Source of the DNA: a virus
Direction: 5' to 3' (one strand)
IMG/VR virus record: IMGVR_UViG_3300025853_000044
Coordinates: 31,368-95,367 of that record
Length of the DNA: 64,000 nucleotides
The notes under the pieces were generated by a model. That model had not been told where the DNA came from. It saw only the letters and a program-made list of their open reading frames with translations, and did not search any database. A program made the position numbers and the translations under genes. Of the stretch, positions 12,822 through 56,084 are shown in pieces (position 1 is the first letter of the stretch; every line of letters begins with the position of its first letter).

Positions 12822-14226
12822 AGATGTTCCTCCTTTCCACTGTCTTGTTTACTCCAATAGGCAAGCCATTTCCGCCTATCAGTCCACGATTATGTGTTCC
12901 CTTCACACCACCGATAAGGTATGCTGTGTTAAATACTCCTCTTTCCTTAACGACCGATACGATACGCAACTCCACCTTGCCAAACAAGGCCAAGTTCTGT
13001 TCCACCACCTGCACATAGGTGGCGGGGTTGCTGTCGTTTGCGCCCACGCTACTGCCCTCGGCCACGCCCTGTAGGATGCCCTCAATACCCGTATCTAAGT
13101 TCATCATTGTGAGGTCGCTCATGTTCTTCATTGGCATGTGTTTAACCTCAGTAACTACTTTGTTACCACCGTCATACTTGACAGTCATACCGGGACGCAG
13201 ATTGAGTAGGTTGAGGTGGCCAGCACTGGATATAGAGCCACGGATGAGCGAGCGTGATTTGAGTACCTGCCGTGCTACACGACGGGCGGCGTTGGTGGTG
13301 CGGGCGGTGTTGTCCACGATAGGTGCGCTGTCCTCTCGCACTTCCTCTACCTGTCCTTCTACATCGTCCACCGTGACAATCACCAAGTCATTGAGAGCCA
13401 ACGGCTGGCCTTGCACAGTGACACGGTTAGCGATGTTCTCAATCGGGTTATCGGTCTTGGCACCGAATCGCAGGTTCTTGTCCACGAACACGCTTGCCTC
13501 GCTGAATGTGATGGGAATGTACAACAGGTTGCCGAAGCGGTCAAGCAGGAGCATACGGCTGTCGTGACGGCCAAGGAAGCGCAGAGCGGTCATGAGGTTC
13601 ATGTTGTTGAAGTCTTGACCCACGAAGCGTGTGCTATGCTTGCGTGCTGATGATGCGGTGACATTCTGTGGGCGTGAGATGTTCACGCTGGTTGCACCGC
13701 TGTTGATGGACTCACCAAGGCGCACAGCCAAGTCTGTGGTACGCAGGCCCACATCCACAGGCTGGCCGAGTTTGACAGTGCGACCAGTGAACCCGATACC
13801 ATCCAGCGTCTTACCCTTCATGTTGCGTAGGTTTACCAACACACCAAACGATGATGATTCAACCGTGTGCGGCAACAGGCGTTGCGCTGATGCGTCAGCG
13901 TTGTAGATGAGCATGGGGCTGTTGGTGCTGGAAATTAAATCATCAGCAAAGAAAGGGGCAGTATTGAGTGAATGACCGGGGGTATTGTTATGCGACAACT
14001 GGATGTACGATTCACCCTCAAGGATGCGGTAATTGCGTTGCGGCATCACTTGTAAATTACGAGTGTTTTTCTTTTCTACCGTGACCTTAGCCTTGTTTGC
14101 CTTCTGCACGCTGATGCGACCGTGATGAATGGCGTTGTCCACGAACACGGGCTTACGCACATGCGTCATGACCTCATCTGCATCAGTGCTGTACCGACCA
14201 GTCCTTGTGTTCTTGAGGACGGTCAT
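12811..14226 (-). CDS. probable baseplate/tail hub protein
   Basis: The 471-residue protein lies downstream of the giant tail gene. Its middle and C-terminal parts show the pattern of hub proteins such as phage D-like proteins: LFGNLLYIPITF-type strands, ENIANRVTVQGQPLALND, LRPGMTVKYDGG and VSVVKERGVFNTAYLIGG. A hub would cap the tail tube and hold the tip. The N-terminal 60 residues are basic (RTGRYS, KANKAKVTVEKKNTR). The hub role is inferred from texture and position, not from a clear homologue. Confidence 0.45.
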   Translation of the reverse strand: MTVLKNTRTGRYSTDADEVMTHVRKPVFVDNAIHHGRISVQKANKAKVTVEKKNTRNLQVMPQRNYRILEGESYIQLSHNNTPGHSLNTAPFFADDLISSTNSPMLIYNADASAQRLLPHTVESSSFGVLVNLRNMKGKTLDGIGFTGRTVKLGQPVDVGLRTTDLAVRLGESINSGATSVNISRPQNVTASSARKHSTRFVGQDFNNMNLMTALRFLGRHDSRMLLLDRFGNLLYIPITFSEASVFVDKNLRFGAKTDNPIENIANRVTVQGQPLALNDLVIVTVDDVEGQVEEVREDSAPIVDNTARTTNAARRVARQVLKSRSLIRGSISSAGHLNLLNLRPGMTVKYDGGNKVVTEVKHMPMKNMSDLTMMNLDTGIEGILQGVAEGSSVGANDSNPATYVQVVEQNLALFGKVELRIVSVVKERGVFNTAYLIGGVKGTHNRGLIGGNGLPIGVNKTVERRNIYAD

Positions 14227-14235
14227 GGCTTAACC

Positions 14236-14571
14236 TCAGCAGTTCCATCGCTTCAAGGATGCTCCCTTTGGTGTGAGTTTACCACCTTTACTGGTCGGGC
14301 CTTTGACACCCGACATGCGAGCGCAAAACGATTTACGACGCTTTGCCTTCTTTGAGCCGGGTTTGAGTTTGCTTGGTTTGGTTGTCACGGGAGGTTTGAG
14401 GTTTGCACCACTCTTACGCTTGGCGGCGGCACGACCTTTAGCGTTCAGTCCACCTTTCTTACTGTGCTTATTTGGGTTATAACCATGAAATGGCTTACTT
14501 TTTTTGGCCTTCATTACAGCAAAGGCTAATTCAGCAGGCGAACAACAATCACAAAAATCGTAATCCATCAC
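14236..14571 (-). CDS. small basic protein of a family common in marine phages
   Basis: The 111-residue protein is very lysine-rich. Its core GGLNAKGRAAAKRKSGANLK, followed by PPVTTKPSKLKPGSKKAKRR, SFCARMSGVKGP and a terminal ASLKRWNC, is a pattern I recall from short uncharacterised proteins of marine tailed phages and large viruses (a DUF6321-like domain; assignment from memory). It may bind DNA or another acidic partner. The N-terminus carries a cysteine cluster (DYDFCDCCS). It overlaps the giant gene by four bases. Two further small basic genes (56089-56487 and 56901-57092) share this style. Confidence 0.7.
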   Translation of the reverse strand: MMDYDFCDCCSPAELAFAVMKAKKSKPFHGYNPNKHSKKGGLNAKGRAAAKRKSGANLKPPVTTKPSKLKPGSKKAKRRKSFCARMSGVKGPTSKGGKLTPKGASLKRWNC

Positions 14572-17500
14572 GAAGCATCACCACTATGGTCATTTGAATT
14601 GTAGGAGACATCTCCTTTATGTCCTTTGGGATGCAGGGATTGGGAGAAACGAGGCTGGACGGTGTAATCCATGCGCTCTTCCTTGCTCTCGCCCTCTTGA
14701 TGGGTGCGGCGGCGAGCGGCATCTGCACGGTAGTGTTGCAGGGTGTTTTCACTCATCACGACACGAGTAATCTCGTTGTCCAATAACGATGAATCAAAGC
14801 CCGTGGCGGCGGTGCCGATGATTTTCGGGCCTTGACTCATTGGCACAGTGTCACTTGTACTGATGTCCATGTAGTATGCGGGCGCATAAGGTGGGTTGGT
14901 GTCGGGGTTGGTGCTACGAATGTAGGAGCCTGCCGATGCTTGACCGTTGGTTGTCTCGTACACATATAGCCCGTACTTACCACCAGCGGTGGCACCGAAG
15001 TAGTTGCTACCATACTGTGGGCTTGATGAGTGCAAGTTGAGGTTGGAGCGGAACATCTCGGCATGTTGTTTGTCCAGTAAACGAACTGGGCGCAACATGT
15101 AGGAAATGCGCTTGTCGGTGAGGTTGGTACGCTGGTGCCCGTTGGTGTCGGTTTGATATGGGTTGCTGGACTTCCATTGTGAAACATTGTTTGTGAATCC
15201 GTATTTTTCCGCAAGGTAGCCTTCTACTTGTTGTCTTTCTGTTGTACTCATAGCCCGATTATACTGAATGATTTCTGCAATTTTACCTTTTAATTCAAAC
15301 GAACCTACATGGCCGATACCATATGGGTCTTCATCAGCCACATACCAAGCACCAGTGCTACTTCCTACACTAACACCTTGTAAAAATAGTTCAAAGTTAG
15401 CGTTGCTACCTGCGCCATCTCCACCTGCTATGGTTCCAGTAACCAATTCTGCTTGATTAACGACTACAGCATTACTTGGGGAGTTTACAACAGTGTAAGT
15501 AGTGTCAGCACCACCTCTCCACTGCCACTTGTCGCTTGAATCCCACCGAATAAACAACGAATGACCAGCACGGGTTACTGGGCTGTTTGCGAATGTTTCC
15601 AAAACCCCTTGAGCATTTCCATCGTCGTCATCCGACCAAGCAACGACAAAGAGTGTTACATCGGTAGTGTTTAAGCGAGCATCAAATGGTGTACTCATAA
15701 TGTCTGTTCCATCACAATCTACAACTGGCATGTTGTTCACATTGGATGATGACGCAATATAGACTGGTTGTTTGGATGCAGTAGATTGTGTGAACTCAAA
15801 GCCATGCGGCCCGCTGTCTTTCCATGATGTTACAGCCGCCCCGTCTGCCAAATCAAGGCTATCGGCTTTGAGCCACAACGCCATGCCGGATGTGGGAATG
15901 CCGCCCCATTCAGTATCGTCAATAGGTGATACGAAGTTGCGGGCTTCTGCAATGTAGGTACCGCCGAGTGGGTTGAAGTTGGAGGTATGGGAGAGTCGCA
16001 TAGCACCACCCTGCGGCTGGCCGCTGAAGTCAAGGGCGGTGAGGTCGTAATGGCCAATCGTCTGCGAGCCTGCTTGCATACCACCATGCACGATAACACG
16101 CTGGCCTACACCACGGTCGGAGTGTAGGCTGTGAGCCTCGGTGTTGATGGCAATGAGGTTATCATCCACACCCTCTACATTCTCAGTGTCAAGTCCAATG
16201 CGGGGTGCACTGCGGCTTACAGCGTCTTTGTGTGGAGAGTCACCGCTCACGGTTTCTACACGGTCGCTTACCACGGCTTCCGGCTTGAGCAAGCCGTCTT
16301 CTGCGATGTCAAGGCGTGCGCTGATACCACGAGGCACCTCGTCAGCCTGCAACACATCGTTGCGAGCACGGATGTAGCCGTCGTTCATGTTCGGCTCAGC
16401 GGTGTGATGAGACAACACAACACCCGATGCGTGATACGGCTCGTCAAGGGCTGTCAACACATCCTCGTTAAAGGCAGTAGGGTATCGCAAACCACGCCCG
16501 TGCCCGTCGTCGCCAACACGGTGAGCGTTGGTGGGGAAGTACACATCCACAAGTTCAGTAGCGTCGTTAGAGTTTACATTGTTAAGCCGTCCAGCAAAGC
16601 GTGGTATAGTAAAGCCCGTCGTGACACTGATGTTGCCCGAAGCATCTATCAACGCTTTCGTATTCATGATTGGGAAGCCACCGTTGTAGATTCTGTCAAA
16701 CGGTGTTTTGTTGCCGGTGCGGTCATATTCGTACACATCACCAGCATCCCACGCAGGGCGAATACCGAAACCACGAACAGGGTGACGGCGTACTTCTTCA
16801 CCACGGGTGTTACCCCACCAGTCCACCAAATAGTACGCTACAGCCTCATCCAACTTGTAGATGCCCTTTCCTTCTCCATCTCCCCACCAATCTCGTAGCA
16901 CGCCGCTTGCGTTGCGTAGTGTGCGTACAGGACAACCGAAAGCACGAGCCATACGCATTCCATCACTGTAGCGCACCTGCCATTCGGGTTTATCCACACC
17001 GAGCATACCGGAGAAGTTGGTCTGCCGTTCCATAATACCGAGTTGAGTGTTGGGGTATGTGCCATTGGAAAGACCGCTACCACCTGCGTATGTCCATGTT
17101 TCAGTCTCGCCTTGCACAAGTGGGCCGTGTGGATAACCCACGCTGGTGTTTGTCCCAGTTACAGCGGCTTCTCGGAATGCACGCATACCATACAACGACC
17201 ATTGTGGTTTGTTGTAGGGTTGGCGTAGGCCAATACGATAACCGAATGGTCGGGTGCGTGTTTGTACAGGAGTGAATGTGAGCGTGCCATTCGTCACAGA
17301 CCCACCCGTGGTGGACGCACTCAACTCAAAGGTCGTAGCGTTGGTGATGGATGAAACCGTGGCACTTCCCGGTATGCCTGTGCCACTTACTCCCATACCG
17401 ACTACAAGTTTTGCCGTAGAATCCATGGTGATGGTCGGGTCATTGTTGTAGTCGCATGTTGCATCGGTAAACGCATCGTATGTGGATTTGACCACACCGT

Positions 17501-43237: not shown

Positions 43238-44338
43238 TCACTTGAGGTCACGGATTGAGCCGTGTCCACCGAAGAAAGTCGTCCATAGTTCTCCCATGGT
43301 GCGGTACATTCCTTCTTGTCCGAGGCGGTTGATAGCGAATGGGTCGCCAGTTTCAATACCGCTCTCAAAGTATTGGGTTGGAATTGCAGTGCTGAAGTAC
43401 AAGTAATCCGTGTCAAGGAAGTACATACGGCTCAAAGTGTCCGTTTGAATGTCCTTGGATGGGATGATTGGGACACCGTTGTAGGTGGCCACAATGAAAC
43501 CTGCTTCAATACCGGGAACACCTTTCACACCGTTGTAGGTAGGGGTGACACGCTTCTCTTCCATAAACCGCTGTTGGCTTTGGAGGAGTTGTTGTAGGCG
43601 CATCAAGGTGTCGTATCCAGTAAGAATAACCTTGGGGTTTCCACCACGAGTCCAAATCTTTTGGAACAGGTCATCCAACTGGTCAAGGGACAAGTTGCGG
43701 TCAGTACCACTGTTTTCATTGTGCTCAGCGAGCGACCACGAGTTTGCACTGCGGTCAATGGAGTACATGTCTTCAGTTGAACCTGCGGAAGCACCAACGG
43801 TCACACGGTCAAGGGATTCAAAGTCGTTCCCTGCAACGGTGGCTTTGTCGGTCGTAAGCATCTTGTTCACATGCTCAGCGTGGTGCTTACCCATTTCTTC
43901 CTTGAGAATTGCACGAATGTCGCCCAATCCATCGTCCTTGTCGGACAGGAACATTGCGGTTTCGCTCATGTCAAAGGTGTGAACCACAGTCTTTGGCTTG
44001 GCGGCAATGTGCTGGAAGGTTGGTTTGGTGGTGTCGGGGAGCGTAGCGTTTTCTGCAACACCGCCGCCAACCGTGAAGGAAGGACGCTCGGTGATGACTC
44101 GCCAACCACTGCGTTCCCAAGGTCGCTTGGGAAGGATGGAGAAGGCGTTGAACTCTTGGTTCAACTGGCTCCAAACCTTGCGTCCATAGATGGCTTGGTA
44201 AGTACCAGCCGTGGTGGACAGCATTGGAGCGTCAGCCTTGAGCAACTCGCTACCGGAGTAGGAGTATCCCATTGCGTTGCCTGCGCCGTAGTAGTATCGT
44301 TCCATGTCAGTAATGTTTCGGATGTAGTCTCTTGCCAT
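43238..44338 (-). CDS. major capsid protein, HK97 fold
   Basis: The 366-residue protein has the order and texture of HK97-fold capsid proteins: an N-terminal arm, IYGRKVWSQLNQEFNAFSIL, a beta hairpin with VVHTFDMSETAMFL, a spine helix (REDIRAILKEEMGKHHAEHV-like, residues about 143-162), an A-domain with NPKVILTGYDTLMRLQQLLQ, and a C-terminal PTQYFESGIETGDPF. It follows the protease-scaffold gene directly, as is typical. GAGGTGA before the ATG supports the start. It should form the icosahedral shell after protease maturation. Confidence 0.9.
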   Translation of the reverse strand: MARDYIRNITDMERYYYGAGNAMGYSYSGSELLKADAPMLSTTAGTYQAIYGRKVWSQLNQEFNAFSILPKRPWERSGWRVITERPSFTVGGGVAENATLPDTTKPTFQHIAAKPKTVVHTFDMSETAMFLSDKDDGLGDIRAILKEEMGKHHAEHVNKMLTTDKATVAGNDFESLDRVTVGASAGSTEDMYSIDRSANSWSLAEHNENSGTDRNLSLDQLDDLFQKIWTRGGNPKVILTGYDTLMRLQQLLQSQQRFMEEKRVTPTYNGVKGVPGIEAGFIVATYNGVPIIPSKDIQTDTLSRMYFLDTDYLYFSTAIPTQYFESGIETGDPFAINRLGQEGMYRTMGELWTTFFGGHGSIRDLK

Positions 44339-44365: not shown

Positions 44366-45745
44366 TCATTCCCCTCGCAGGGTGCGATGTGCAAGGGCGT
44401 GAACTTCGTCCCACCCCATGTTCGCCATGTCTTGCGTTGAGGGAATGTCAATGGATGCAACCGACTTTTGAATGGTCGTGCCTGCTCCTGCACCGATGTT
44501 GTCAATGCGCTCGGAAAGAGCCTCAATGGACTTCACGATTTCCGTAAGTGGTGCTCGTGCGTCAAAGGCGGCTTTATCAGCCTCGGATTTAGCAACTTCC
44601 ATCTCGTTGTTGAAGCGAGCGGCAAAGTTGCCTTCAAGGTTGTTTCGGAAGTCTTGTTCCAAAGCGGCGGCTTTGTAAACTTCGTAAGCGGCTTCAAGGT
44701 CTGCATCACTCACATTTTCGGAGTTGAGGTAGCCCTTGGACAATGAGGCTGGCCCCATTGCTCCGGCAGGAGTTTTACCACCGGAAGCGGTGATAGCGTT
44801 GATTGCACCAGTGGAGGGAGAACCGTTCTCCTGTCCTCGGCCACGGACTTGACCACCGAAGTAGTCAGCACCGTCAACAGCGTCGGGGTTGTCAAAGCCA
44901 CCAAGTTGGGCTTTCTCAAGTTGGTCAAAGTGGAGGCGAGCACCATCAGTGTCAACGCCAGCCGACTTGAGGGTGTTTTCCATCCAAGAAAGGTATTCGG
45001 AGGAAATAACATCGGAGTATTCTCCTTTGTCCATGTACATCTTGTCATCGTCTTTCTTTTCGTCTTTCATTTCGTCACCTTCTTCTTTTTCGGGCTTTTT
45101 TTCTTCATCACTACCCTTACCCTTCATGTGTTCACGGAGTTGAGGAGGTAGTTCTCCCTTTTCCATGGCATCCAGTCGGCTTTCAAGTCGTGACATAATT
45201 TCTGTCAAATCACTGTTTTCGTTTGTCATAGTGTTGTCCTCCTTCAAAATGCGGAACTGTGCTTCGGGGTTGATACCCTTTTCACAAATCGTCACCTCAT
45301 GCAACTCCATTTTTGAAATCTCTTGGTAGTCGCCTTTTTCCATGTCGGACTTTCGCACTCGCTTGAATGCTTGCCCTCCAATAGAAAATCCACGAAGGTT
45401 GCCCTTGCGGATTTCAGCGGCTACTTCACGAGCCTTCTCTATATCGTTGCGGAGTTTAACAACAACGAACAGCCCTGTGTCATCCGTTTCGGATTTCCAC
45501 ATGCGTCCGTTGGAATCAATGTACGAGTCAATGACTTCGCCAACTTGAATGTTGGAGTGAGCCAACTGTACATTGCGGTACTTTTCACCCTTCATGAAGC
45601 CATCAAAGGCATCCTTTAGGGCGGAGCGAGTAATGAGGTCGCCTTGCTTATCTACAAGTTCAACTGATGCGTAGCCAGCAACAACCAAATCGTTACCACT
45701 CTTGAGGAGAGTGATACCGTCAGTAGGTCGTTGAATGCTCAGCAT
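44366..45745 (-). CDS. prohead protease fused to scaffold
   Basis: Residues 1-170 are an HK97 gp4-like serine protease: VVAGYASVELVDKQGDLI, catalytic histidine in VQLAHSNI, catalytic serine in RGFSIGG, and LHEVTICEKGINPEA. The remaining 290 residues look like a scaffold: a charged coiled-coil segment (EEKKPEKEEGDEMKDEKK), helical repeats and a C-terminal tail, MANMGWDEVHALAHRTLRGE. The protease-scaffold fusion is a known arrangement; scaffold is digested as the capsid matures. The C-terminal motif recurs in the 113-residue gene at 52242-52583. The start has a poor ribosome-binding site and a TATA-like box upstream. Confidence 0.88.
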   Translation of the reverse strand: MLSIQRPTDGITLLKSGNDLVVAGYASVELVDKQGDLITRSALKDAFDGFMKGEKYRNVQLAHSNIQVGEVIDSYIDSNGRMWKSETDDTGLFVVVKLRNDIEKAREVAAEIRKGNLRGFSIGGQAFKRVRKSDMEKGDYQEISKMELHEVTICEKGINPEAQFRILKEDNTMTNENSDLTEIMSRLESRLDAMEKGELPPQLREHMKGKGSDEEKKPEKEEGDEMKDEKKDDDKMYMDKGEYSDVISSEYLSWMENTLKSAGVDTDGARLHFDQLEKAQLGGFDNPDAVDGADYFGGQVRGRGQENGSPSTGAINAITASGGKTPAGAMGPASLSKGYLNSENVSDADLEAAYEVYKAAALEQDFRNNLEGNFAARFNNEMEVAKSEADKAAFDARAPLTEIVKSIEALSERIDNIGAGAGTTIQKSVASIDIPSTQDMANMGWDEVHALAHRTLRGE

Positions 45746-45784: not shown

Positions 45785-48700
45785 TCAAGTCCGAGACACC
45801 AACGGCTGGTCATTGTCGTAGTCTATAGAGAGTCTTTCACCCTCGTCAGTTTCTACTTGAATGTGATTCAGTCGCTCGGTTTTCTTCTCTTTCTTTTCAT
45901 CAGTAATTTTTTTCTCACCGTCAAAATCCGGTAAGGTTGACTCGTGACGAAGTTGGGTTGGGCCACGGGGCGATTCCTGCGGTGTACCAACATCAATACC
46001 CAGTCCCTTTGGCCCAGTCCATGTCATGCGCTCTTTGCTGATTTTATCCAAGGCTCGTACAATAACTTCCAATGCTTTCTTTGTTTGATTGGGTTTGAGA
46101 AGGCGATTTTCATCATCTTCTTCAAGAATACCCACGCTTTGCTCTTCAGTTCGTTTATCGCTCGGCTTCTTCGGCATTACATCACTTTCAGTTTGTTTAC
46201 TGAGTAATCCTTTTACCATTAGTGGAGCAACCGACGACCAAAACGGCATAAGACTTTCAGCCAGCACCACAGGGTAATCGGTCTTGGTCAAATCACCCAT
46301 CGTGCTTTTTGGTGAATGCACACACCACACATCGCCTATTTCTTCCATGTTGTACACTACTGTGTCAACTCCCTTCAACACGATTTGAATCTGTGAGTCC
46401 GAGATTTCAATATCGTGAGGAATAAGAATTGGTGCGAATGCTTTGGTCATGAGGTCAAGAGATTCTGTGCTGGCCGCACCCTCTCCTTCACCCTCCCCTT
46501 CCAACTCCTTGACTTGTACATTGTACACAGGGCGGTTTTTGCGGTTTTTCTTGGAAATACCCGTGATGGATGCACGAACAATGTCGCCAACCTTGAACAC
46601 CATACGCTGGTTATGAGCCGTACCCACATCCATGTAATGTTCACCATCATGCTCCACAGCCCTGTTTCCAAGCCCCTCAATCTCAAGGATAGGGCCAGCA
46701 CCCAACTGATAGGTGTACGGGCCTTTGCCACGACGGTCAAGGATGATGAAGTTGAAGTCTCGGCTGTCACGGTAAACAATCCACTTTGGATGTCGTCGCT
46801 CTCCACGCATGTAGGTGGATTTGTTGTCTCGCAACAAAATGTTGTCGTGGTCGTCTTTGAGGTTCTTTACAGCGTCGGCCAGTCCCTCATCGTCTGTCAT
46901 ACGAGTATCGTGTGGGCCGGGTACAATCACAGGCTCTTGACTGTCAAACTGTGAGCGTAGAATTTTCAACCGCTCAAACAACTGCATTTCACCCACATTG
47001 GTATCGTCGTAATTGATAATGTCAATGATGTTCAACTCTTCTTCACCAAGAATAGCGTCCAGCGTATAGTTCTTGTCGTTCATTTTTTCAAGAGCCTCTT
47101 TCGTGGCTTTGCGTAGCCCCTTCTTACGACCGTTTTCATCATACGCCGTAATCTCGTCATCACTGCGTACAATGATAATTCGCTTCCCATCATACCACTT
47201 ACTTACAACCCACGAGCCGCTGAAACCACGAAGGTGTTCAAGGTCGGCCAAATCAAAAATGCGGTGCATAGGGCGAACAGCAGGACTCCATTTCGCATCG
47301 TCGCTCTTGCTCAACAACACATCCGGGTCAAGTAGAGAGGTGATGAGTTCGGTCATCTCACTTGCCGCTACCGTAGTTGGAATCTCGCTTGCTGTTTCTG
47401 CTGTCTCCATGTTCATGCTTTGGTGAGGATTGTCGGGGTACTGAGGTGGTGGTGCATTTGCATAGACTTGTTGCGCTACTTCTTTTCCGTGAATCATAGC
47501 GGTCAAATCCTCCGGCACAGAATGATACAACCCTGTGCCTACATTTGAACCGATGTGAATTGTACCGTCGTCGCCAAACTCAGCACCAAGTGTAGGTGTT
47601 GCTTCATACCCATGGTGCCACGCACCGCTGTCAAAGTTATCCGTCAACCCTGCGTGTGCGGGCGAAGGAATACCCAGTGGATACTGAGACATGCCTGCTG
47701 TTTCAGGAATTTCCAAGTCGGGTGTGAAGACACCTTCCTCTTCTTCAAGTACACGAGGGTCAAAGTGAATAATCGTGTCAAGGTGATTCTTGGTGTCGTT
47801 TGTTTTACGGGATTTTGATTGACTACCAAAGCCCTTTGCACCGTGAATATCACCTTTGACGGCACCAATACCAGCGGCTTTCATTGAGTCTTTGAATTGC
47901 TGTGGGTTAAGTTTCATACCCATGGCTCGTGGAATACCGTGAGAAAGATGTCCACCCCATGCTTTTATGTCAGTTTGTTGTGCAAAGTGGTTAATGGCTT
48001 GATGATACCCGTTTTCTCGTGCGTGGCGATAGAACGCCTCATGGTCGTCCAACTCCTCTTCGGGCTTGTTCATCATCTCTTCGTCGGTGAAATGATTGAG
48101 GTCAAGCCCGTCAATGTTCGGGATTTTACCACTGAGAAGAATGTTCTTAATTGTAGAAACTTGTAACGGCGCACCTCTTTCACCCACCATATCAATGAGT
48201 TCTTGGGCTTTCACTTTTGCAACAGGAGTTCGTTGGATTCCAAGTTTGTCCAACAGTTTGTCAGCATTTTCATCACCCTCAACCATTATACCGTCTGTGG
48301 ACAAATGATTAGCGATAGTAGCGTGGAATGGATTTTGTGCCGCAGGGTCGGTGTCTCGTACAGAAGCCTGTAATCCATAATTGGTTGAAGAAACACCGTG
48401 TACACTGTGAGGAACAGACACAATGTAGCGTTGAGCGTCACGCATCAGTTGATGGGTGTTTGCGATAAACTTCTCCGGCTCGTCGGGATTGAAAGCATCG
48501 GGGTCATGCTCAAGGTATTTTGGTAGAAGAACATCTCGTGCAACCTCAGCAATGGTTTGTCGGTGGCCACCAAACAATTGCTCCATACGAGTGGCATCAA
48601 GTTTCCACATTGTGTTTTTACTCTTCTTTTGTGTGCTTTGCTGTACCTTTTCCAATTGTTGAGTCGTATCGTTGATTTCAGCCATCAACGGTTGCAATTC

Positions 48701-51571
48701 TTCAATGGGTGCGCCAGTGGTTTGCTTTTCAGTCAACTCTTGATTTAATTCTTCAAGCATTGTTGTGAGTTCGGATTCTTGTTGCGAAGCGGGTAACATA
48801 CCGCCGAATTGAAGCAAACGAGAAACGGCATCCTTTTCGTCAGCCGCCATTGTGGTTTTTGTTTTCTGTGTCTTTTTCTTCGCTTGCAGTTCCTCAGTCA
48901 TGGTTTCCGTCATGCTTTGAAGAGAAGAAAGCAACTTCTGTTCATCAAACTCACCAAGACCTCGGCCCAACAAAGCAGTGTTTAATTCGGGATGCTTATC
49001 TGTAACGACACCGGGTGCCATCGGGAGAGTGTTTCTACCGTGCATAAGGTACTCAAGAATCTCCTTTGGGTCTTGTGTACCCAGTATTTTTGACGCTTGA
49101 GTAATGGCCGTCATAGCGTGATTCATATCGGGATTGGTCAACACTTGATTCTTCAACGCATTGAACGAAAAGCCACTACCACCGCCCCATCGCATAAAAT
49201 CAATGAAGTGTTCTTTGCTCTCCCCACCACTGAATGCCTCATCTCCACGAAGGAAGTCTTGAACTTTCATCAGTGATTTTTGTGCTGGTTGATGAGGGTG
49301 ATTCATACGCCCGCCAAGCGTTTCAAGGAAGTGAGCCAGTTGTGCGTTCTTGTGCATATTGCTGTCCGAAGGAGATGCGCCGTAGGATGTGAAGGCACCC
49401 ACATGATAGGTGGGAATAATTGTGTGTGGATATGTCAACGGTTTGAGATGGGTGCCAAACCTGTCCTTACGCTCTTTGTCCGTCATGTGGCGAATCGTGT
49501 ATTCGTAATCGGGGTTGAGTGTCGTTTTGTGTTCTGTGTAGTTGTTCTTGCCGGTTGAACCGTCCCGGTACGCTCGTTTTTTGGAATGCCCTACGGGAGA
49601 AAGCAAGTTTTGTAGCAACTCTTTTTGGTTGAAGTATGAAAAGCCCTTACCAGTAGAAACAAATTGCTGTGTGCTTGTGTTTACCTTTTTCATTTTTTCG
49701 CCAAACTCACCAATCAACTTTGTTTTTAATGGCATGAAGTGATGAGCGAGCGTTGTGTTATCGGGATTGGCATTGATGTAATTTGCACCAGCATCGCTTA
49801 GTTCTGTGAATGGCGAAAGACCGTCCTCATCAGCATGTGTGGCGTGAAGGATGTCATGGTAAGTTGCAAGCGTTATACCTGCTCCGCCCGTTTTTGCAAA
49901 GGCTGAGTCCCAAAAGCGACCGGGGCCGTAAGTGAAACCGTCACTGTGGTTTCGCCAGTAATTCGGTTTTTCCTCTGTTGGATGAGGGCCGTGTGGGGAA
50001 GTAAAAAAGGCCCGATGATTGCGAGCATCCTTGATACCAGCATGAAGTGAAGAGTTCGCCTTAGCCATGGATTCAATGTCGTCAATCAAGTCAGCGTTGA
50101 CAATTGGTTCTTCCAATTTACCGTGAATTGGATGGTCGGTCATCAACTCCCGTGTCTTAGGGTCGTAGCCAGCCAAATAAAGCAAATCAGCCTTGCTCAT
50201 TCGCACATCGTCAAGACTTCGCTTTCTTCCCTTTACTTTGAAGTGGCTTGCCATTGCATCTTTCATTTCGTCTTGGTCAAGTTCTCTCATTGGGTTCTTG
50301 TCCACATAAAGGCGTGGTAGAAACTTGTGATGCCCCGATATACCGTAGTTGTCTCGGATGCGTTCAAGAATAATTTCTGAGAGTGAATGACCATCAAATT
50401 CATCCATAGGCTCGTGAGCAAATCTACCCATAGCCTGTTGCAAAAACATGTTGCTTTCACCAGCAATGTAGTCGTTGTCATTGTTTTCTTGATGGTAGTG
50501 TGCATTTCGCCCCATATGTGTCATTGGACGCATAGCCCAATTCATTTCGGGAGTCATACGCATGAGGGCGTTGTATTTGAGGCGAGCAGAAGGAAACTTT
50601 TGTCCGTTAGGTAGCGAAATCAAATCATGGTCGTCAAGACCCTTTTCACCGATATGCTCCATGATGGCTGTGCGTTCTTCGGGGTCAAACCATTCAAGGC
50701 CAAGCATGTAGCCAAGGTGCCCAAGCCGTGTTGGGTGTTCTTCATACTTGTCGCTGAGCATCATGTTGCTATCGTCATCAGCCTCCCACATGGCCGCTCG
50801 GTCAGCAAAGTGTTCTTTGCGAAGTTGCTCTTTCATCTCAGCGTTGTCCATACCTTCAGCCAGTAATTCCTCTTGACGATTCTTGTTCCGCTTTAACCAA
50901 CGGAAATAATCTCGCTCGTAGAGGTCATGCTGGTGATGAAGAAGTGTGCCGTTTGGACGGGTATCACCAAGAATGTTTACCTTCTTTCCTCCTTTTTGCT
51001 GAAACCCACCGACAAGAGGATGGTCTTTACCGAGAGTATCAAAGAATTGCTTTTCCATTTCCTTCTCGGCTTCACCATGCCCACCCAGTGCCCAACTTCG
51101 TAGCATCTCTACATAGGCAGGCATCCCCGACACTGCGTTGGTACGAAGAAGCGGGTGGTTGACTTCGTGAAACGGGAAGTGGTGCCGCTGGTATGGATGT
51201 GTGCCGTCCTTTGGTTGGTAGTACGGCCACATTGCATGGCCGTGCTTTTTGTTTACAGGTGATTGAAGCCCGTCTTTCCATACATGGTTGGTCGGCTCGC
51301 CATGTGAGTGTTGAAGAGCGAACAAGTAGCCCATACCTTCGGGATATTTGTAATCGGTTTCACCGACTTTTACTGCATCTTTTTCTGCTTGTTCTTTATT
51401 CTTGTAAATCATCTCAGCCGTGGCTTTGAGAGATTTGAACAACGGTTCGCTTGGAGTCGTGTCAAGTGCTTCGTAGGCAAGAATGTATTCAGCCGCCGAA
51501 TAAACAAGGTCAAGACCATCATCCAGTGATTTAAGCAGTTGGTTGCTACACACAAAGAAATGGTCGTTCAC
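45785..51571 (-). CDS. 1928-residue head-module protein with degenerate DNA ligase-like domain
   Basis: A very large protein between portal and protease genes. Residues 1-1400 are rich in His, Met, Asp and Glu, with no family I recognise; a coiled coil lies near 900-990 (MTETMTEELQAKKKTQKTKT, LTTMLEELNQELTEKQ). Residues about 1430-1740 follow the layout of ATP-dependent DNA ligases: WVVSKWYDGKRIIIV (motif I region), TLDAILG (III), IIDIINYD (IIIa), DNILLRDNKSTYMRG (IV), PKWIVYRD (V), then an OB-like VGDIVRASITGISK. The expected nucleophilic lysine of KxDG is tryptophan (1459), and motif III and IV acidic residues are also replaced, so it is probably not an active ligase. The GTG start has GGTGAT just upstream. 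Confidence 0.6.
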   Translation of the reverse strand: MNDHFFVCSNQLLKSLDDGLDLVYSAAEYILAYEALDTTPSEPLFKSLKATAEMIYKNKEQAEKDAVKVGETDYKYPEGMGYLFALQHSHGEPTNHVWKDGLQSPVNKKHGHAMWPYYQPKDGTHPYQRHHFPFHEVNHPLLRTNAVSGMPAYVEMLRSWALGGHGEAEKEMEKQFFDTLGKDHPLVGGFQQKGGKKVNILGDTRPNGTLLHHQHDLYERDYFRWLKRNKNRQEELLAEGMDNAEMKEQLRKEHFADRAAMWEADDDSNMMLSDKYEEHPTRLGHLGYMLGLEWFDPEERTAIMEHIGEKGLDDHDLISLPNGQKFPSARLKYNALMRMTPEMNWAMRPMTHMGRNAHYHQENNDNDYIAGESNMFLQQAMGRFAHEPMDEFDGHSLSEIILERIRDNYGISGHHKFLPRLYVDKNPMRELDQDEMKDAMASHFKVKGRKRSLDDVRMSKADLLYLAGYDPKTRELMTDHPIHGKLEEPIVNADLIDDIESMAKANSSLHAGIKDARNHRAFFTSPHGPHPTEEKPNYWRNHSDGFTYGPGRFWDSAFAKTGGAGITLATYHDILHATHADEDGLSPFTELSDAGANYINANPDNTTLAHHFMPLKTKLIGEFGEKMKKVNTSTQQFVSTGKGFSYFNQKELLQNLLSPVGHSKKRAYRDGSTGKNNYTEHKTTLNPDYEYTIRHMTDKERKDRFGTHLKPLTYPHTIIPTYHVGAFTSYGASPSDSNMHKNAQLAHFLETLGGRMNHPHQPAQKSLMKVQDFLRGDEAFSGGESKEHFIDFMRWGGGSGFSFNALKNQVLTNPDMNHAMTAITQASKILGTQDPKEILEYLMHGRNTLPMAPGVVTDKHPELNTALLGRGLGEFDEQKLLSSLQSMTETMTEELQAKKKTQKTKTTMAADEKDAVSRLLQFGGMLPASQQESELTTMLEELNQELTEKQTTGAPIEELQPLMAEINDTTQQLEKVQQSTQKKSKNTMWKLDATRMEQLFGGHRQTIAEVARDVLLPKYLEHDPDAFNPDEPEKFIANTHQLMRDAQRYIVSVPHSVHGVSSTNYGLQASVRDTDPAAQNPFHATIANHLSTDGIMVEGDENADKLLDKLGIQRTPVAKVKAQELIDMVGERGAPLQVSTIKNILLSGKIPNIDGLDLNHFTDEEMMNKPEEELDDHEAFYRHARENGYHQAINHFAQQTDIKAWGGHLSHGIPRAMGMKLNPQQFKDSMKAAGIGAVKGDIHGAKGFGSQSKSRKTNDTKNHLDTIIHFDPRVLEEEEGVFTPDLEIPETAGMSQYPLGIPSPAHAGLTDNFDSGAWHHGYEATPTLGAEFGDDGTIHIGSNVGTGLYHSVPEDLTAMIHGKEVAQQVYANAPPPQYPDNPHQSMNMETAETASEIPTTVAASEMTELITSLLDPDVLLSKSDDAKWSPAVRPMHRIFDLADLEHLRGFSGSWVVSKWYDGKRIIIVRSDDEITAYDENGRKKGLRKATKEALEKMNDKNYTLDAILGEEELNIIDIINYDDTNVGEMQLFERLKILRSQFDSQEPVIVPGPHDTRMTDDEGLADAVKNLKDDHDNILLRDNKSTYMRGERRHPKWIVYRDSRDFNFIILDRRGKGPYTYQLGAGPILEIEGLGNRAVEHDGEHYMDVGTAHNQRMVFKVGDIVRASITGISKKNRKNRPVYNVQVKELEGEGEGEGAASTESLDLMTKAFAPILIPHDIEISDSQIQIVLKGVDTVVYNMEEIGDVWCVHSPKSTMGDLTKTDYPVVLAESLMPFWSSVAPLMVKGLLSKQTESDVMPKKPSDKRTEEQSVGILEEDDENRLLKPNQTKKALEVIVRALDKISKERMTWTGPKGLGIDVGTPQESPRGPTQLRHESTLPDFDGEKKITDEKKEKKTERLNHIQVETDEGERLSIDYDNDQPLVSRT

Positions 51572-51583
51572 GCTATCACCGCC

Positions 51584-51730
51584 CTATTGGAGCGGTACAA
51601 ATTGTGGACAAGCGTGCAAATCCATTCCGCCATGTTGCGGCAATTGACATCCTGTGCGTTCAACGCCTCCACACAGACCACAAATAACTGGTGCACCGCT
51701 TTCACGCATTGCCGCTTTTGGGTTAGGCAT
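51584..51730 (-). CDS. 48-residue zinc-finger protein
   Basis: A short frame fills the gap between two larger genes. Its ATG overlaps the preceding stop (TGATG) and it ends with TAG twelve bases before the 1928-residue gene. The product has CGLC, then a cysteine in RTGCQLP, a histidine pair (QHGG, DLHAC) and a fourth cysteine, so it is a plausible single zinc finger. The tight start-stop coupling, identical to that of its neighbours, and the well-ordered cysteines argue that it is real in spite of its size. Confidence 0.65.
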   Translation of the reverse strand: MPNPKAAMRESGAPVICGLCGGVERTGCQLPQHGGMDLHACPQFVPLQ

Positions 51731-52245
51731 CAACGCCCACCCGCCGTGTCTTCTCGCTCAGCCCCTCGTCCCTCATGAGGATTCATACGAGAGCCGAGGC
51801 GTTGAGTGTCAATGGCTTCTTTGGGCTTCTTTTTCTTGGGAGCATCCTCAGTCTCAATGGTGCGTCCGTTAGTGGTAAAGTAACCACTTTTGGTTTGTCC
51901 ACCCGATTCAGCGTGGAAAGAAGGATTGACATCGGTGATTTTCTCAGCCTTGAAGCCCGGTTCGGCTTTGGCCATTTTACCATGAGACTTGTTGCATTGT
52001 GCCTTTTGCTTTTCCGAGCATTCCGAATACTTCTTACCGAAGTTCTTCATACAGTATTTATCTTTGGTAGCCATGTCAGCCTTAGCCATTTTGCCACCGC
52101 AACCCATTTTCATACATTGGCCCATTTTGTTGAGTTTACCACCTTTACACTTTGGACAATCTTCACCTTTTAGCAATTCGTCAATTCGTTGTTCAAGTTC
52201 AATGGCCTTTGTCAAATATCCGTTTTCTACTGGTCGTGGTTTCAT
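51730..52245 (-). CDS. cysteine-rich basic protein of the head module
   Basis: The 171-residue protein begins MKPRPVENGYLTKAIELEQR, an N-terminal helix, followed by a zinc-type cluster (CPKC, QCMKMGC) and a second cysteine-rich stretch (YCMKNFGKKYSECSEKQKAQ, then CNKSHGK). The C-terminal half is polar and lysine-rich. I chose the ATG at 52245 because AAGGAGG lies seven bases upstream and the start overlaps the previous stop (ATGA); an in-frame ATG 16 codons upstream lies inside the previous gene. Function is unknown. Confidence 0.6.
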   Translation of the reverse strand: MKPRPVENGYLTKAIELEQRIDELLKGEDCPKCKGGKLNKMGQCMKMGCGGKMAKADMATKDKYCMKNFGKKYSECSEKQKAQCNKSHGKMAKAEPGFKAEKITDVNPSFHAESGGQTKSGYFTTNGRTIETEDAPKKKKPKEAIDTQRLGSRMNPHEGRGAEREDTAGGR

Positions 52246-52583
52246 TGTACACCCTCCTTTGCACCTAAAGCCAATTCGTGAATGTCTTCCCACGACATGG
52301 CATGAATGTCCTCATTACTCATTGTGCCTATTTCGGGTGAACTCTTGAGAAGAGCACCACCTTCAAGAGCCATATCTCCCCGGAAAGGGTCAACTTGTAA
52401 GTCATTTGTGAAAGGAGTAGAGACATTGACAAGTCCCATTTTACGAAGAAGTTGTTGTGGGTTGTTGATGAGTCTTTTGAGAGCATCATTTTCAGCCTTA
52501 AGAATTGAAAGATTGGAATCCATAGACTCCATCTTATTGATGAGAACACCAATCAATTGTTCAGCATCGGATGATTCACTCAT
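52242..52583 (-). CDS. small coiled-coil protein, scaffold candidate
   Basis: The 113-residue protein has an N-terminal coiled coil (LINKMESMDSNLSILKAEND, ALKRLINNPQQLL), a short central part, and a C-terminal MSNEDIHAMSWEDIHELALG followed by AKEGVQ. That tail matches the C-terminus of the protease-scaffold protein (pattern D-[IM]-x-x-M-x-W-[DE]-[DE]-[VI]-H-x-L-A). Coiled coil plus shared tail suggests a second scaffold or a capsid-docking protein. It lies between portal and protease genes. No database family is recognised. Confidence 0.55.
   Translation of the reverse strand: MSESSDAEQLIGVLINKMESMDSNLSILKAENDALKRLINNPQQLLRKMGLVNVSTPFTNDLQVDPFRGDMALEGGALLKSSPEIGTMSNEDIHAMSWEDIHELALGAKEGVQ
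52253..52259 (-). promoter_or_regulatory. ribosome-binding site deciding the 52245 start
   Basis: AAGGAGG on the minus strand, seven bases before the ATG at 52245, lies inside the end of the previous gene. It selects this start over the upstream in-frame ATG. Confidence 0.6.
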
Positions 52584-52592
52584 TTAATCACC

Positions 52593-52943
52593 TCAAAGAC
52601 GACGACCGTAGGAACCTGCGCTTCGTTTGTACTGTGGGCTGTGGCGGGAGGAAGACATAAAGCCGAGTCGCTGTCCTTCAATGGCGGGCTTAGATGCTTC
52701 TTGTGGTTGCATTTTCAACACAGGGACACCGCCAGCAAAAATATCCCGTGGGCCTTGTGGGGTCACCACATCGGATTTAGCAATCTCTTGGTGCAAATCA
52801 TCAGCCAAAAAATCGCTGAGTTTTTGTACTTCACTAAGGTGTTGCTTGGCCATTTGACCATCTCCACTTTCAAGAGCAGAAATAAATGATTTCTGTGCTT
52901 GTTCCATTTTTCGGGCCATCGGGTGCATTTTCAATAAGTCCAT
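52593..52943 (-). CDS. small helical head-module protein
   Basis: About 116 residues from the ATG at 52943 (MDLLKMHPMARKMEQ). Residues 10-60 are amphipathic helix (AQKSFISALESGDGQMAKQH, LSEVQKLSDFLADDLHQEI) and the C-terminus is basic and Ser/Tyr-rich (FMSSSRHSPQYKRSAGSYGR). An open extension upstream reaches into the portal gene, but AGGGAT before 52943 and the lack of overlap favour the shorter form. Position after the portal suits a head chaperone or minor head protein; this is not proven. Confidence 0.5.
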   Translation of the reverse strand: MDLLKMHPMARKMEQAQKSFISALESGDGQMAKQHLSEVQKLSDFLADDLHQEIAKSDVVTPQGPRDIFAGGVPVLKMQPQEASKPAIEGQRLGFMSSSRHSPQYKRSAGSYGRRL

Positions 52944-52989
52944 GTTAATCCCTGCTATGTTCGCCTCATGCCTTTCGTCTTTAAGAGCA

Positions 52990-54771
52990 TTACTGTCCAC
53001 GGGGGCGACGAGCATCCAAAAGTGCATTACTCAAGTTTTGTTGCATAGATGGTGCTGGCCCTCTTTGTTGTACATTCGTAAATGGTGCACCGCTACCCAT
53101 ACTTCCTCGTCGTTGAGGAGTCGCTGGCCCACGGTTTCGTAATCCCACGCCTTGACCTCCGGGTTGTGGAGGTGGCATCACCTGTTGAGCGAGTTGTGGA
53201 GGCATTTGTGGGCCTCTTCCTTGCATCATAGGCATACCCGGAGGCATACCCGGAGGCATACCGGGAGGCATACCGGGAGGCATACCGGGAGGCATACCTC
53301 CTCCCATTGGTGGAGCACCACCCGGCGGAGCACCTTGTTGTGGTGGTTGAGGTTCGGGACGCTTGTAAGTGAAACGGATGTCTCGGTTGGCTGTGTCTTC
53401 AATGAGTTCGGGCATAAAGCCAAGTTGCGCCATGCGTTGTGCGACATTGAGTTCTTCCGAATCACGGCGTAGGCGTGTAATCTCATCTTCTTCTTCGTTG
53501 GGATAGAGCGTAAGTTTCCAATCATTGATGTCCATTTGTTTGAGAAGACGAGGGAACAGAACTTCTGTGTACACTTTTTGTCCAAACTCAACGGCTCGGT
53601 TTGTCACGAGAATCTGCATACCTTCATTGTTAAGACCGCCTTTTTTACCAGCATCCATCATGAAAACCGACGAAACACCGTAGAAAGCGGCAATGCGATT
53701 ACGAATTTCATCACGCACTGCAATGTATTGCATTTCTTCCAGTGTGTCCATGAACTTAACCCAATTAACGCCACCACGACCTGTAGATGATTCAATGCCA
53801 ACCTTGGGCACATAGTGAGGGTCACGCTCCATTTTTTCGTCCACAGCCTTCCAAAATGACTTCATGGACTCCAAGTTATCTGTGGTGACTGATACGATAC
53901 CCTTTGGCATCCGTCGCTTTTGATATGCTGTGTAAATGTAATTGTCCATAGCCGTGAGTGTCATGGCTTGTCGCCACATGGTGTTGACAGGAGAGCGACC
54001 ATACAGTTTAGACGCTTTGTACTTACTCACATGAAGAATTTCGCCTTCAACGAAGTATTGGGTTTTTCCGCTACCTGCCATGTTTACATAATGCACATCG
54101 TGGAGGTCAGCACCGCACACTTCACATGTATCATCCTCAGCGTGTGTTTTGATTTGGTCACGATGAATTAAACATGTTTTGTAGCGTCCACCACGCACAC
54201 CTCGCTTATCAGCAACGATACGCATGAAAATAGGGTCGCCACGCATGATTTCTTTAACACGGTAAAAAGCCACTTCTTTGCTCTTAGGGTCAATAAAATA
54301 CTCCTTGACTAAAATCAAGAAAGCATCATCTACGATGTTGAGGTCAGCCTCTATTTCATTGAGTACAGTAATGAACGATTGCTCCATGCTGTTCTCTTGT
54401 TTAAGGAGCCACTTGGCGTAAGTCAATTCATCTATATCGGGTTTTCTTACAGCCCCGCCGCACTCAGCACATGTTTCCACTTCACTTTGATACTCCTCAT
54501 CACACACCGTACATTTGCGTGCAAATTTCTTCTCCCAGTAGTAGCCACGACGAAACATCTCTTGGCGCAACTTGGCAAGCACTGTACGAAGAATCAGCGA
54601 CTCGTTGCTTACAGCATACAACGCAGGGATGGTGATACCCTGCGCCATCACAGGCTCTTGAATACCACTTGTCCACAGCGGCATGGTTGGAGTGGGAGAT
54701 TCTTTGCGACGGAAAGGCGTACCCAACGCTGAAAGAAATCGTGAAATTCTACCTTGTTCTTCAGCCATCAC
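52990..54771 (-). CDS. portal protein with zinc-type insertions
   Basis: The 593-residue protein lies between terminase and capsid genes and has portal hallmarks: EILHVSKYKASKLYGRSPVN, MDNYIYTAYQKRRMPKGIVS, AVRDEIRNRIAAFYGVSSVF, and RAVEFGQKVYTEVLFPRLLK. Two cysteine modules are inserted: CTVC...CAEC near residues 87-104, and a C/H/C cluster (CLIHRDQ, CEVCG) near 195-215. The C-terminal 150 residues are proline/glutamine/glycine-rich with five or six MPPG repeats. The portal forms the dodecameric DNA channel and docks the terminase. Zinc modules of this type are unusual in bacterial phage portals. Confidence 0.85.
   Translation of the reverse strand: MMAEEQGRISRFLSALGTPFRRKESPTPTMPLWTSGIQEPVMAQGITIPALYAVSNESLILRTVLAKLRQEMFRRGYYWEKKFARKCTVCDEEYQSEVETCAECGGAVRKPDIDELTYAKWLLKQENSMEQSFITVLNEIEADLNIVDDAFLILVKEYFIDPKSKEVAFYRVKEIMRGDPIFMRIVADKRGVRGGRYKTCLIHRDQIKTHAEDDTCEVCGADLHDVHYVNMAGSGKTQYFVEGEILHVSKYKASKLYGRSPVNTMWRQAMTLTAMDNYIYTAYQKRRMPKGIVSVTTDNLESMKSFWKAVDEKMERDPHYVPKVGIESSTGRGGVNWVKFMDTLEEMQYIAVRDEIRNRIAAFYGVSSVFMMDAGKKGGLNNEGMQILVTNRAVEFGQKVYTEVLFPRLLKQMDINDWKLTLYPNEEEDEITRLRRDSEELNVAQRMAQLGFMPELIEDTANRDIRFTYKRPEPQPPQQGAPPGGAPPMGGGMPPGMPPGMPPGMPPGMPPGMPMMQGRGPQMPPQLAQQVMPPPQPGGQGVGLRNRGPATPQRRGSMGSGAPFTNVQQRGPAPSMQQNLSNALLDARRPRGQ
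53229..53291 (-). repeat. 12-base tandem repeat coding MPPG units in the portal
   Basis: About five copies of a 12-base unit (GGAGGCATACCC or close variants on the plus strand) encode Met-Pro-Pro-Gly repeats. Such arrays can change copy number by slippage. The unit is too short and lacks spacers, so it is not a CRISPR array. Confidence 0.85.
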
Positions 54772-56084
54772 AATCCCTCAGCGTATGTACCTATCGTGTC
54801 AGCATTTAAGCCCCACTTATCAAGAAGAGAAGCGGCTTTGTTTTTATGTTCTTTCCAATTGTTGTAGGTAACCAATTGATACAACTCAGTCTTTCGCATG
54901 GTGTCCTTCTCTTCAATGTAATTCAACACCGCTTTGGCTTGTAGTGATTTGAGTTTAAGGTGTGGAAGCACCCCTTTGAGTATTTCACGAATGTCATTCT
55001 TTGATGAGAAAATAAGGCGATGAACGGGCTTAATGGTATTTTTTGCCAACTTTTGGTCGGACACAAGGCGACCACAACCAATCATTTTTTGCAATTCTTC
55101 ACAATGGCTGAAACCATTGTCGCCACTGGCTACAATCGTCACACGAGGGTCGCCACGCTCGGAGATGAAAATGCTTCCATCGGCATCAACAAAACCAGCG
55201 GTGTATGCCCACATGTCTTTGATGATGAAACCATCAGTGCCTTGTTTGACAAAAGTTTGTCGTGCGCTACCTTTGTACACATCAACCTCTTCACCATACA
55301 TTTTGAGTAAAGAACTCATTTTACCGGCTGTCATGGATTTGTTAAGGGTTCCATAGCCTCTACGCACAATTTCACGACTTCCGAGAGCACCTTCCTTTTG
55401 TAAAAGGTCGGATGCGAAATGCAATGCGGCTACATCTGTCTTTTTTAACCCATCAATTTGATGCAGTGTGTTCTTCCACATCTTTTGGGCTTCTTTCTTC
55501 ATGTCGTTTGCATCAACCCAGTTTTGCTGGTCGTCAGTGTTCCAATCCAACTTGTCGTTAAGGTGTTGAAGCACTGTAATTGCTTTGAGGTATTGTTGAC
55601 ATGATTTTTGTAAACTGATACCACGGGATTCACCAAATTTACGCAATGCTTTGAGTGAGCGGTCATCAAGTCCGATATTGCGTATGACATCCTCCATACC
55701 ATCAGCCCATGAAAGAGATTTGATGGTCAAATCAACCTCCATGGCTTTTACACGGCGTATGTCTTTGATGATGCCGTCATATTCATCCCGAAACGATTTG
55801 TCGTGTCGGCGCATTTTGCGACACATGCGAATAATAGTGTTGGCATCGGTACCGTATTTACTTTCAAACCAGCCATCTCCGTTTTTTGCAAACCGTGATA
55901 CTGCGTTGTCTTCTTTGATGACTGTATTTAAAGTCTTAAGGGGTACACTTTGTGGCTGAAAATGGGGATGTTGAGCAATACTTTTCAAAACAGTATTGGA
56001 AAAATCATCTGCGACACGCAACGGTACATCGTACTCGTCACCGATAAACAGACTCCCCCACATATTGACCACTGGATTGACCAT
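54768..56084 (-). CDS. head-module protein fused to a LAGLIDADG endonuclease domain
   Basis: Residues about 285-400 carry a LAGLIDADG-type unit: WAYTAGFVDADGSIFI with the catalytic acidic residue in the DADG end, then RVTIVASGDNGFSHCEELQK, MIGCGRLVSD, HRLIFSSKNDIREILKGVLP and LQAKAVLNYIEE. This single motif fits a homodimeric homing endonuclease. The first 280 residues are helical and unrecognised (RMCRKMRRHDKSF, LKALRKFGESRGISLQKSCQ) and contain no intein splice motif that I can see. It lies between portal and terminase genes. Either a mobile nuclease has joined a virion gene or the domain is used as a DNA-binding part. Confidence 0.7.
   Translation of the reverse strand: MVNPVVNMWGSLFIGDEYDVPLRVADDFSNTVLKSIAQHPHFQPQSVPLKTLNTVIKEDNAVSRFAKNGDGWFESKYGTDANTIIRMCRKMRRHDKSFRDEYDGIIKDIRRVKAMEVDLTIKSLSWADGMEDVIRNIGLDDRSLKALRKFGESRGISLQKSCQQYLKAITVLQHLNDKLDWNTDDQQNWVDANDMKKEAQKMWKNTLHQIDGLKKTDVAALHFASDLLQKEGALGSREIVRRGYGTLNKSMTAGKMSSLLKMYGEEVDVYKGSARQTFVKQGTDGFIIKDMWAYTAGFVDADGSIFISERGDPRVTIVASGDNGFSHCEELQKMIGCGRLVSDQKLAKNTIKPVHRLIFSSKNDIREILKGVLPHLKLKSLQAKAVLNYIEEKDTMRKTELYQLVTYNNWKEHKNKAASLLDKWGLNADTIGTYAEGL

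Follow-up and report, generated by a model that had tools for sequence, protein, structure and literature searches.

A C-terminal tail shared by the protease-scaffold and a small protein of a tailed virus is a putative procapsid-docking module

Introduction

In bacteriophage lambda, the protease-scaffold gpC and the separate scaffold Nu3 have a common C-terminal part, and their genes are nested. The herpesvirus proteins UL26 (a protease-scaffold) and UL26.5 (a scaffold) are identical in their last ~25 residues; this tail binds the major capsid protein, and cleavage at the nearby M site, 25 residues from the C-terminus, releases it (PMC12474303). UL26.5 is nested within UL26 and is identical to its C-terminal part. 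The scaffold of phage 80alpha and CpmB of the staphylococcal satellite SaPI1, which hijacks the phage, have a common C-terminal RIIK helix-and-hook; both bind the same site on the capsid protein, and they are exchangeable (PMC5644958). In phage T4, a short N-terminal capsid targeting sequence on several cargo proteins brings them into the procapsid and is removed by the prohead protease (PMC9026906), which cuts after Glu. The protease of phage HK97 cuts between K103 and S104 (PMC10275583).

Few studies have addressed how archaeal tailed viruses assemble their heads. Those of Poseidoniales are abundant but are known mainly from sequence. Here, we describe a C-terminal tail that is carried by two proteins in a window of 64 kb (64,000 nucleotides), taken from a 95,367-base virus record in IMG/VR (IMGVR_UViG_3300025853_000044). 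The tail is probably a removable procapsid-docking module on the protease-scaffold and on a second, minor scaffold; we infer its binding partner, its cleavage, and the scaffolding role of the second protein. In the open-access text of the magrovirus papers that we searched, neither the shared tail nor the lysine site that precedes it turned up.

The head gene block

The head genes begin with the portal protein (52990-54771, minus strand; PF04860, E = 1.7e-10; PHROG portal, E = 3.6e-65), which is followed by three small genes, a giant gene, the protease-scaffold, and the capsid protein. The protease-scaffold (44366-45745, minus strand; 459 residues) consists of an S78 prohead protease domain at approximately residues 10-170, a scaffold region (44456-45223), and a C-terminal tail. 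Its match to PF04586 (E = 2.8e-10; 41 bits, with a cut-off of 21) places it in the S78 (HK97-type) family, and it also matches the head maturation proteases in PHROG (E = 8.7e-16). The major capsid protein (43238-44338, minus strand) has the HK97 fold, as judged by its matches to SU10_MCP in Pfam (E = 1.3e-12) and to the major head proteins in PHROG (E = 2.3e-60). As members of known families, the protease and the capsid protein are unremarkable.

The other protein with the tail (52242-52583, minus strand; 113 amino acids) is an open reading frame with homologues in all of the clades that we examined. It did not match any family in Pfam, it had a single weak match in PHROG (E = 0.016), and a search with Foldseek, using its predicted structure, gave no useful match. 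AlphaFold2 predicts a long N-terminal helix at residues 3-40 (52464-52577), which is probably a coiled coil (pLDDT is 88-95 across residues 11-40), then a linker, and then the tail; we did not recognise an enzymatic domain. Scaffolding proteins are expected to have a mainly helical body and a helical element at the C-terminus, and the predicted structure agrees with this. The gene comes soon after that of the portal, which hints that the protein is an early or minor scaffold. The genes for the small prohead core proteins of T4 lie at the corresponding place after the portal.

Two proteins with the same C-terminal tail

The protease-scaffold ends with ...STQDMANMGWDEVHALAHRTLRGE and the small protein ends with ...SNEDIHAMSWEDIHELALGAKEGVQ. 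A sequence-only reading of this DNA had placed a shared motif 7 or 8 residues from the two C-termini, and a pattern scan and alignments bear this out: the motif is DMANMGWDEVHALA in the protease-scaffold (residues 439-452; 44390-44431), followed by 7 residues, and DIHAMSWEDIHELA in the small protein (residues 92-105; 52269-52310), followed by 8. The core of the proposed pattern also holds in relatives, and relatives are looser at three positions (W-6, W-5, and W+6, relative to the tryptophan). The motif is real, and the common element is longer than that reading had it, as an invariant lysine site upstream was overlooked. The whole module spans about 34 residues and comprises an invariant [IL]xK[SGA], a stretch of 15-22 residues, and then a predicted helix-turn-helix with the pattern [DE]hxxM[SG]W[DE][DE][VI]Hx[LM]A. 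The spacing from the lysine to the tryptophan varies across 15-22 residues in both families and is 18 in both of the proteins here.

The predicted structures of the two tails (residues 435-459 of the protease-scaffold, at 44369-44443, and residues 90-110 of the small protein, at 52254-52316) have the same shape: a short helix, a turn, and a terminal helix that starts at the tryptophan. These helices are at residues 437-441 and 445-456 of the protease-scaffold (local pLDDT of about 66-80) and at residues 90-94 and 98-110 of the small protein. The AlphaFold2 model of the whole protease-scaffold is poor (mean pLDDT of 50), and we used only the tail helices from it. The residue ahead of the tryptophan is Ser, Gly, Thr, or Asp, which would be consistent with a helix cap.

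A stop-to-stop scan of the 64-kb window found the motif in two open reading frames only, and a profile scan of the whole 95 kb record (2622 open reading frames of at least 20 amino acids) found no third carrier. When the open reading frames of the whole record were scored with a profile of the protease tail, the small protein ranked second with 14.5 bits, while the best score in 50 shuffled sets was 10.1. The reverse scan gave 9.1 bits, with shuffles reaching 9.4, which is not significant taken alone. Because of this, the evidence from the single genome is only moderate.

We consider the comparative evidence for a shared tail to be strong. In a profile-profile alignment of the two families, the tails alone align, over 34 columns that include the lysine site (E = 7.5e-6). 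Full-length profiles of the small protein find the protease tails, and vice versa (E of about 2e-4 to 0.03). The sequence-only reading would have failed if the motif were not conserved in relatives of either protein; in our first set of relatives, W..[VI]H is present near the end of all 202 closed reading frames for the protease and all 166 for the small protein. The two genes are in the same order and 6-7 kb apart at 163 loci (about 6.7 kb here). Within the protease-scaffold, conservation at the scaffold end is highest at the C-terminus, and six residues of the motif (M443, W445, E447, V448, H449, and A452) are invariant in an alignment of 53 rows. The codons for the invariant tail residues differ synonymously, which shows that conservation acts at the level of the protein.

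These comparisons rule out a chance resemblance between the two tails. We also considered recent gene conversion between them. Some tails have a serine at W+1, in both proteins in two separate clades, and it is encoded by AGY in the protease and by TCN in the small protein. Also, among the motif-bearing tails that we tabulated, W+3 is always V in the protease and I in the small protein. Given the different classes of serine codon and the consistent difference at W+3, we reject recent gene conversion for the serine change.

A putative cleavage site ahead of the tail

The lysine site ahead of the motif is IQK/S in the protease-scaffold (residues 425-428; 44462-44473), 18 residues ahead of W445, and LLK/S in the small protein (residues 78-81; 52341-52352), 18 residues ahead of W98. 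K427 of the protease-scaffold is invariant, with I or L at -2 and S or A at +1. K80 of the small protein is present in 55 of 55 homologues, and the pattern [IL]-x-K-[SG] is retained in most of clade C (described below).

Similar sites are concentrated in the head genes. In the genes that run from the one after the portal to the capsid gene, the context [ILVMF]xK[SAG] surrounds 17 of the 47 conserved lysines, versus 7 of 100 elsewhere. The protease-scaffold alone accounts for 11 of these among its 18 conserved lysines; with other thresholds, the count is 10/15 in the protease-scaffold versus 13/102 in all other families (Fisher P = 2e-5). When R, E, D, or Q takes the place of the lysine in this context, there is no such excess in the head genes. 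Other conserved [ILV]xK[SAG] sites lie in the scaffold region, at K196, K278, K337, K358, and K405. In the capsid protein, the sole conserved site of this kind is near the N-terminus, at LLK/A (residues 32-35; 44234-44245). In context, it is ELLK/AD (residues 31-35), and it corresponds to LLK[AS]D in clade C, to IQKA in the divergent virus L332, and to MSKAD in the haloarchaeal virus HVTV-1.

Given the excess of lysine sites, the site near the N-terminus of the capsid protein, and the precedent of K103/S104 in HK97, we predict that [ILV]xK[SAG] is the cleavage site of the maturation protease. The pattern is short, and it arises by chance in other proteins too. The invariance of the lysine upstream of the tail hints that maturation removes the tail by cleavage.

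Joint retention and joint loss of the tails

On the loci that we examined in IMG/VR, a scan for the motif identified at least 85 open reading frames that carry it: at least 58 proteases, at least 26 small proteins, and, among the matches listed, one other. This last carrier comes from a very divergent virus (L267/L332), in which it is the small protein. The divergent virus is 25% identical to the virus studied here in the terminase, 28% in the portal, 39% in the capsid protein, and 44% in the protease (catalytic domain only). Its small protein has 162 residues, is encoded two genes after the portal, and ends with SNEELLKMSWEEVHKLAQLAKEESEE. Its protease-scaffold ends with TTPWIEVHKIAKNFRPY (WIEVHKIA), and its scaffold region aligns poorly with ours. 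Thus, WxEVHK[LI]A is found at the ends of both proteins in L267/L332, while their bodies have diverged almost past recognition.

In clade C, both proteins have lost the motif: the protease ends with ..LDGWRALEELGQRAL.. and the homologue of the small protein ends with ..ELKEWQQMENSMP... The replacement tails resemble each other weakly. Across distinct pairs, W+4 is H in both proteins (77 pairs) or E in both (16 pairs) and is never mixed. The loss in clade C counts as a single, deep event and therefore favours a common partner without proving one. The sequence-only reading had proposed that the two tails have a common role, and the joint loss in clade C, together with the joint retention in the very divergent virus, fits a single common partner. 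One member of clade C (L409) is a 106 kb contig from the single-cell genome of a Poseidoniales archaeon (AG-422-I20), which is evidence that Poseidoniales are the host group.

Finer co-variation of the two tails is only suggestive. The concordance of the serine at W+1 is imperfect (both proteins in 4 pairs, the small protein only in 2, and the protease only in 1). Among motif-bearing genomes, the two tails of a genome are not clearly more similar to each other than mismatched pairs are (P = 0.10); if clade C is included, then P = 0.00015. A strict screen for residues of the capsid protein that change with clade C found none, and a similar screen for the serine clades found two trivial candidates only and no residue that is tied to the tail. 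The portal has one column that sets clade C apart and the capsid protein has none, which is too little to decide.

What the tail might bind

The gene context and the precedents from other tailed viruses and herpesviruses point to the capsid protein as the most likely partner of the tail, and we infer that it is. If so, the amphipathic helix-turn-helix at each C-terminus would bind one site inside the growing shell, most likely on the capsid protein. By its tail, the protease-scaffold would form the main scaffold core and would carry the protease inside. The small protein, by the same tail, would be a second, minor scaffold; perhaps it links the portal to the shell or sets the curvature. At maturation, the protease would cut at [ILV]xK/[SAG], about 32-33 residues from each C-terminus, and free the bodies from the tails. 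It may also make several cuts in the scaffold region of its own polypeptide and one near the N-terminus of the capsid protein.

The tail might instead bind the portal, or an initiation complex near the portal, so that both proteins would gather at the portal vertex and nucleate the head. The small gene does lie shortly after the portal gene, and the C-terminal hook of the P22 scaffold also touches the portal (PMC12005531). But a main scaffold has to touch hundreds of capsid subunits, and it is the C-terminus that is most conserved at this scaffold end; also, in herpesviruses, the portal site is a long way from the C-terminal tail with which the scaffold binds the capsid protein (PMC12474303). 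We consider binding to the portal to be quite unlikely. Another potential arrangement is that the two tails bind each other or dimerise, as a homotypic linker instead of a shell-docking element. Both tails are predicted to be helical, and their joint loss in clade C would fit a mutual interface too. However, the same sequence in both proteins is more natural for a common third partner, and the terminal position matches that of known scaffold docking tails, which makes this arrangement very unlikely.

A different question is whether the small protein is a scaffold or a passenger. As cargo, it would use the tail as a capsid-targeting signal, and its coiled-coil body would stay in the head and be ejected into the host. 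T4 has short terminal targeting sequences of this kind that are removed by the prohead protease (PMC9026906), and the genes adjoining the small gene also have recurrent [ILV]xK[SAG] sites. On the other hand, a single helix with a linker is a typical body for a scaffold and a poor one for an effector, and the small protein is kept in every clade that we examined, while the internal proteins of T4 are poorly conserved (PMC9026906). The sequence-only reading had left the choice between a second scaffold and a guest protein. The small protein has only a helix, a linker, and a tail, and we recognise no enzymatic domain in it. This favours the second scaffold, and we view the cargo alternative as unlikely. 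We therefore favour the reading in which the tail docks both scaffolds to the capsid protein.

Comparison with known systems

As in UL26 and UL26.5, a C-terminal tail is common to a protease-scaffold and a proposed second scaffold. The putative cleavage site is 32-33 residues from the C-terminus in both proteins, and cutting there would part the body from the tail, as cutting at the M site does. However, the two genes here are separate and share the tail module only, whereas UL26.5 is nested; and the protease belongs to Pfam's S78 family, which is named for tailed phages. Since nested genes are a defining feature of the UL26/UL26.5-type pair and are absent here, we regard this pair as a variant and not as a member. 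The genes also differ in this way from the nested genes of gpC and Nu3.

The pair is similar to CpmB and the 80alpha scaffold in that a small helical protein (72 residues for CpmB) and a main scaffold with an unrelated body have a short C-terminal motif in common. In contrast to the satellite and its phage, both genes here belong to one virus; also, the protease and the main scaffold form one polypeptide, and the shared motif reads W-x-x-[VI]-H instead of RIIK. Like the T4 targeting sequence, the tail is proposed to be a short terminal tag that brings proteins into the procapsid and is removed by the protease. But the T4 tag is N-terminal and is found on several cargo proteins, while this tail is C-terminal and is found on the protease-scaffold and one other protein, with a predicted cleavage site at lysine instead of Glu.

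The haloarchaeal viruses HVTV-1 and HCTV-1 (Druskaviridae) have homologous capsid proteins (34-36% identity), the protease, and the same gene order. They also have the putative cleavage sites (in HVTV-1, the capsid protein has MSKAD, and the protease has VQKS close to its C-terminus). They lack the W-x-x-[VI]-H tail and a recognised homologue of the small protein, and the N-terminal arm of their capsid protein is much longer.

If the tail is a docking module, then a scaffold docking tail on two proteins, as in herpesviruses, lambda, and the staphylococcal satellite, is probably also found in a lineage of viruses of marine archaea, with separate genes. This gives a concrete hypothesis for how these heads are built and matured, with two scaffolds that share a docking tail and a cleavage code based on lysine; recombinant proteins would be enough to test it. 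If true, the tail could be used to load proteins into such capsids.

Other genes in and near the head block

The genes on either side of the small gene (52593-53027 and 51730-52245, both on the minus strand) have recurrent [ILV]xK[SAG] sites (EIAKS and YLTKA, respectively), so their products may be substrates of the protease too. The giant gene (45785-51571, minus strand) encodes a protein of 1928 residues with a recurrent LLKS site at its N-terminus, and this protein might be internal to the head. Residues 1471-1598 have a weak match to an ATP-dependent DNA ligase domain (E = 2.5e-4, under Pfam's cut-off). A broader idea is that the whole block from portal to capsid encodes procapsid-internal proteins, including the ligase-like protein, that are cut at one [ILV]xK/[SAG] code. 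In that case, a giant protein with a ligase domain would be packaged by these viruses, and possibly injected, and the docking tail would be the shell anchor for two of the members. We find this doubtful.

Upstream of the portal, a 438-residue open reading frame (54768-56084, minus strand), which has no match in Pfam at E = 0.01, contains a LAGLIDADG-like stretch, WAYTAGFVDADGSIFI. In the divergent virus L332, the capsid gene is interrupted (at about 12822-14650) by an open reading frame that resembles an HNH endonuclease; this is probably a self-splicing intron.
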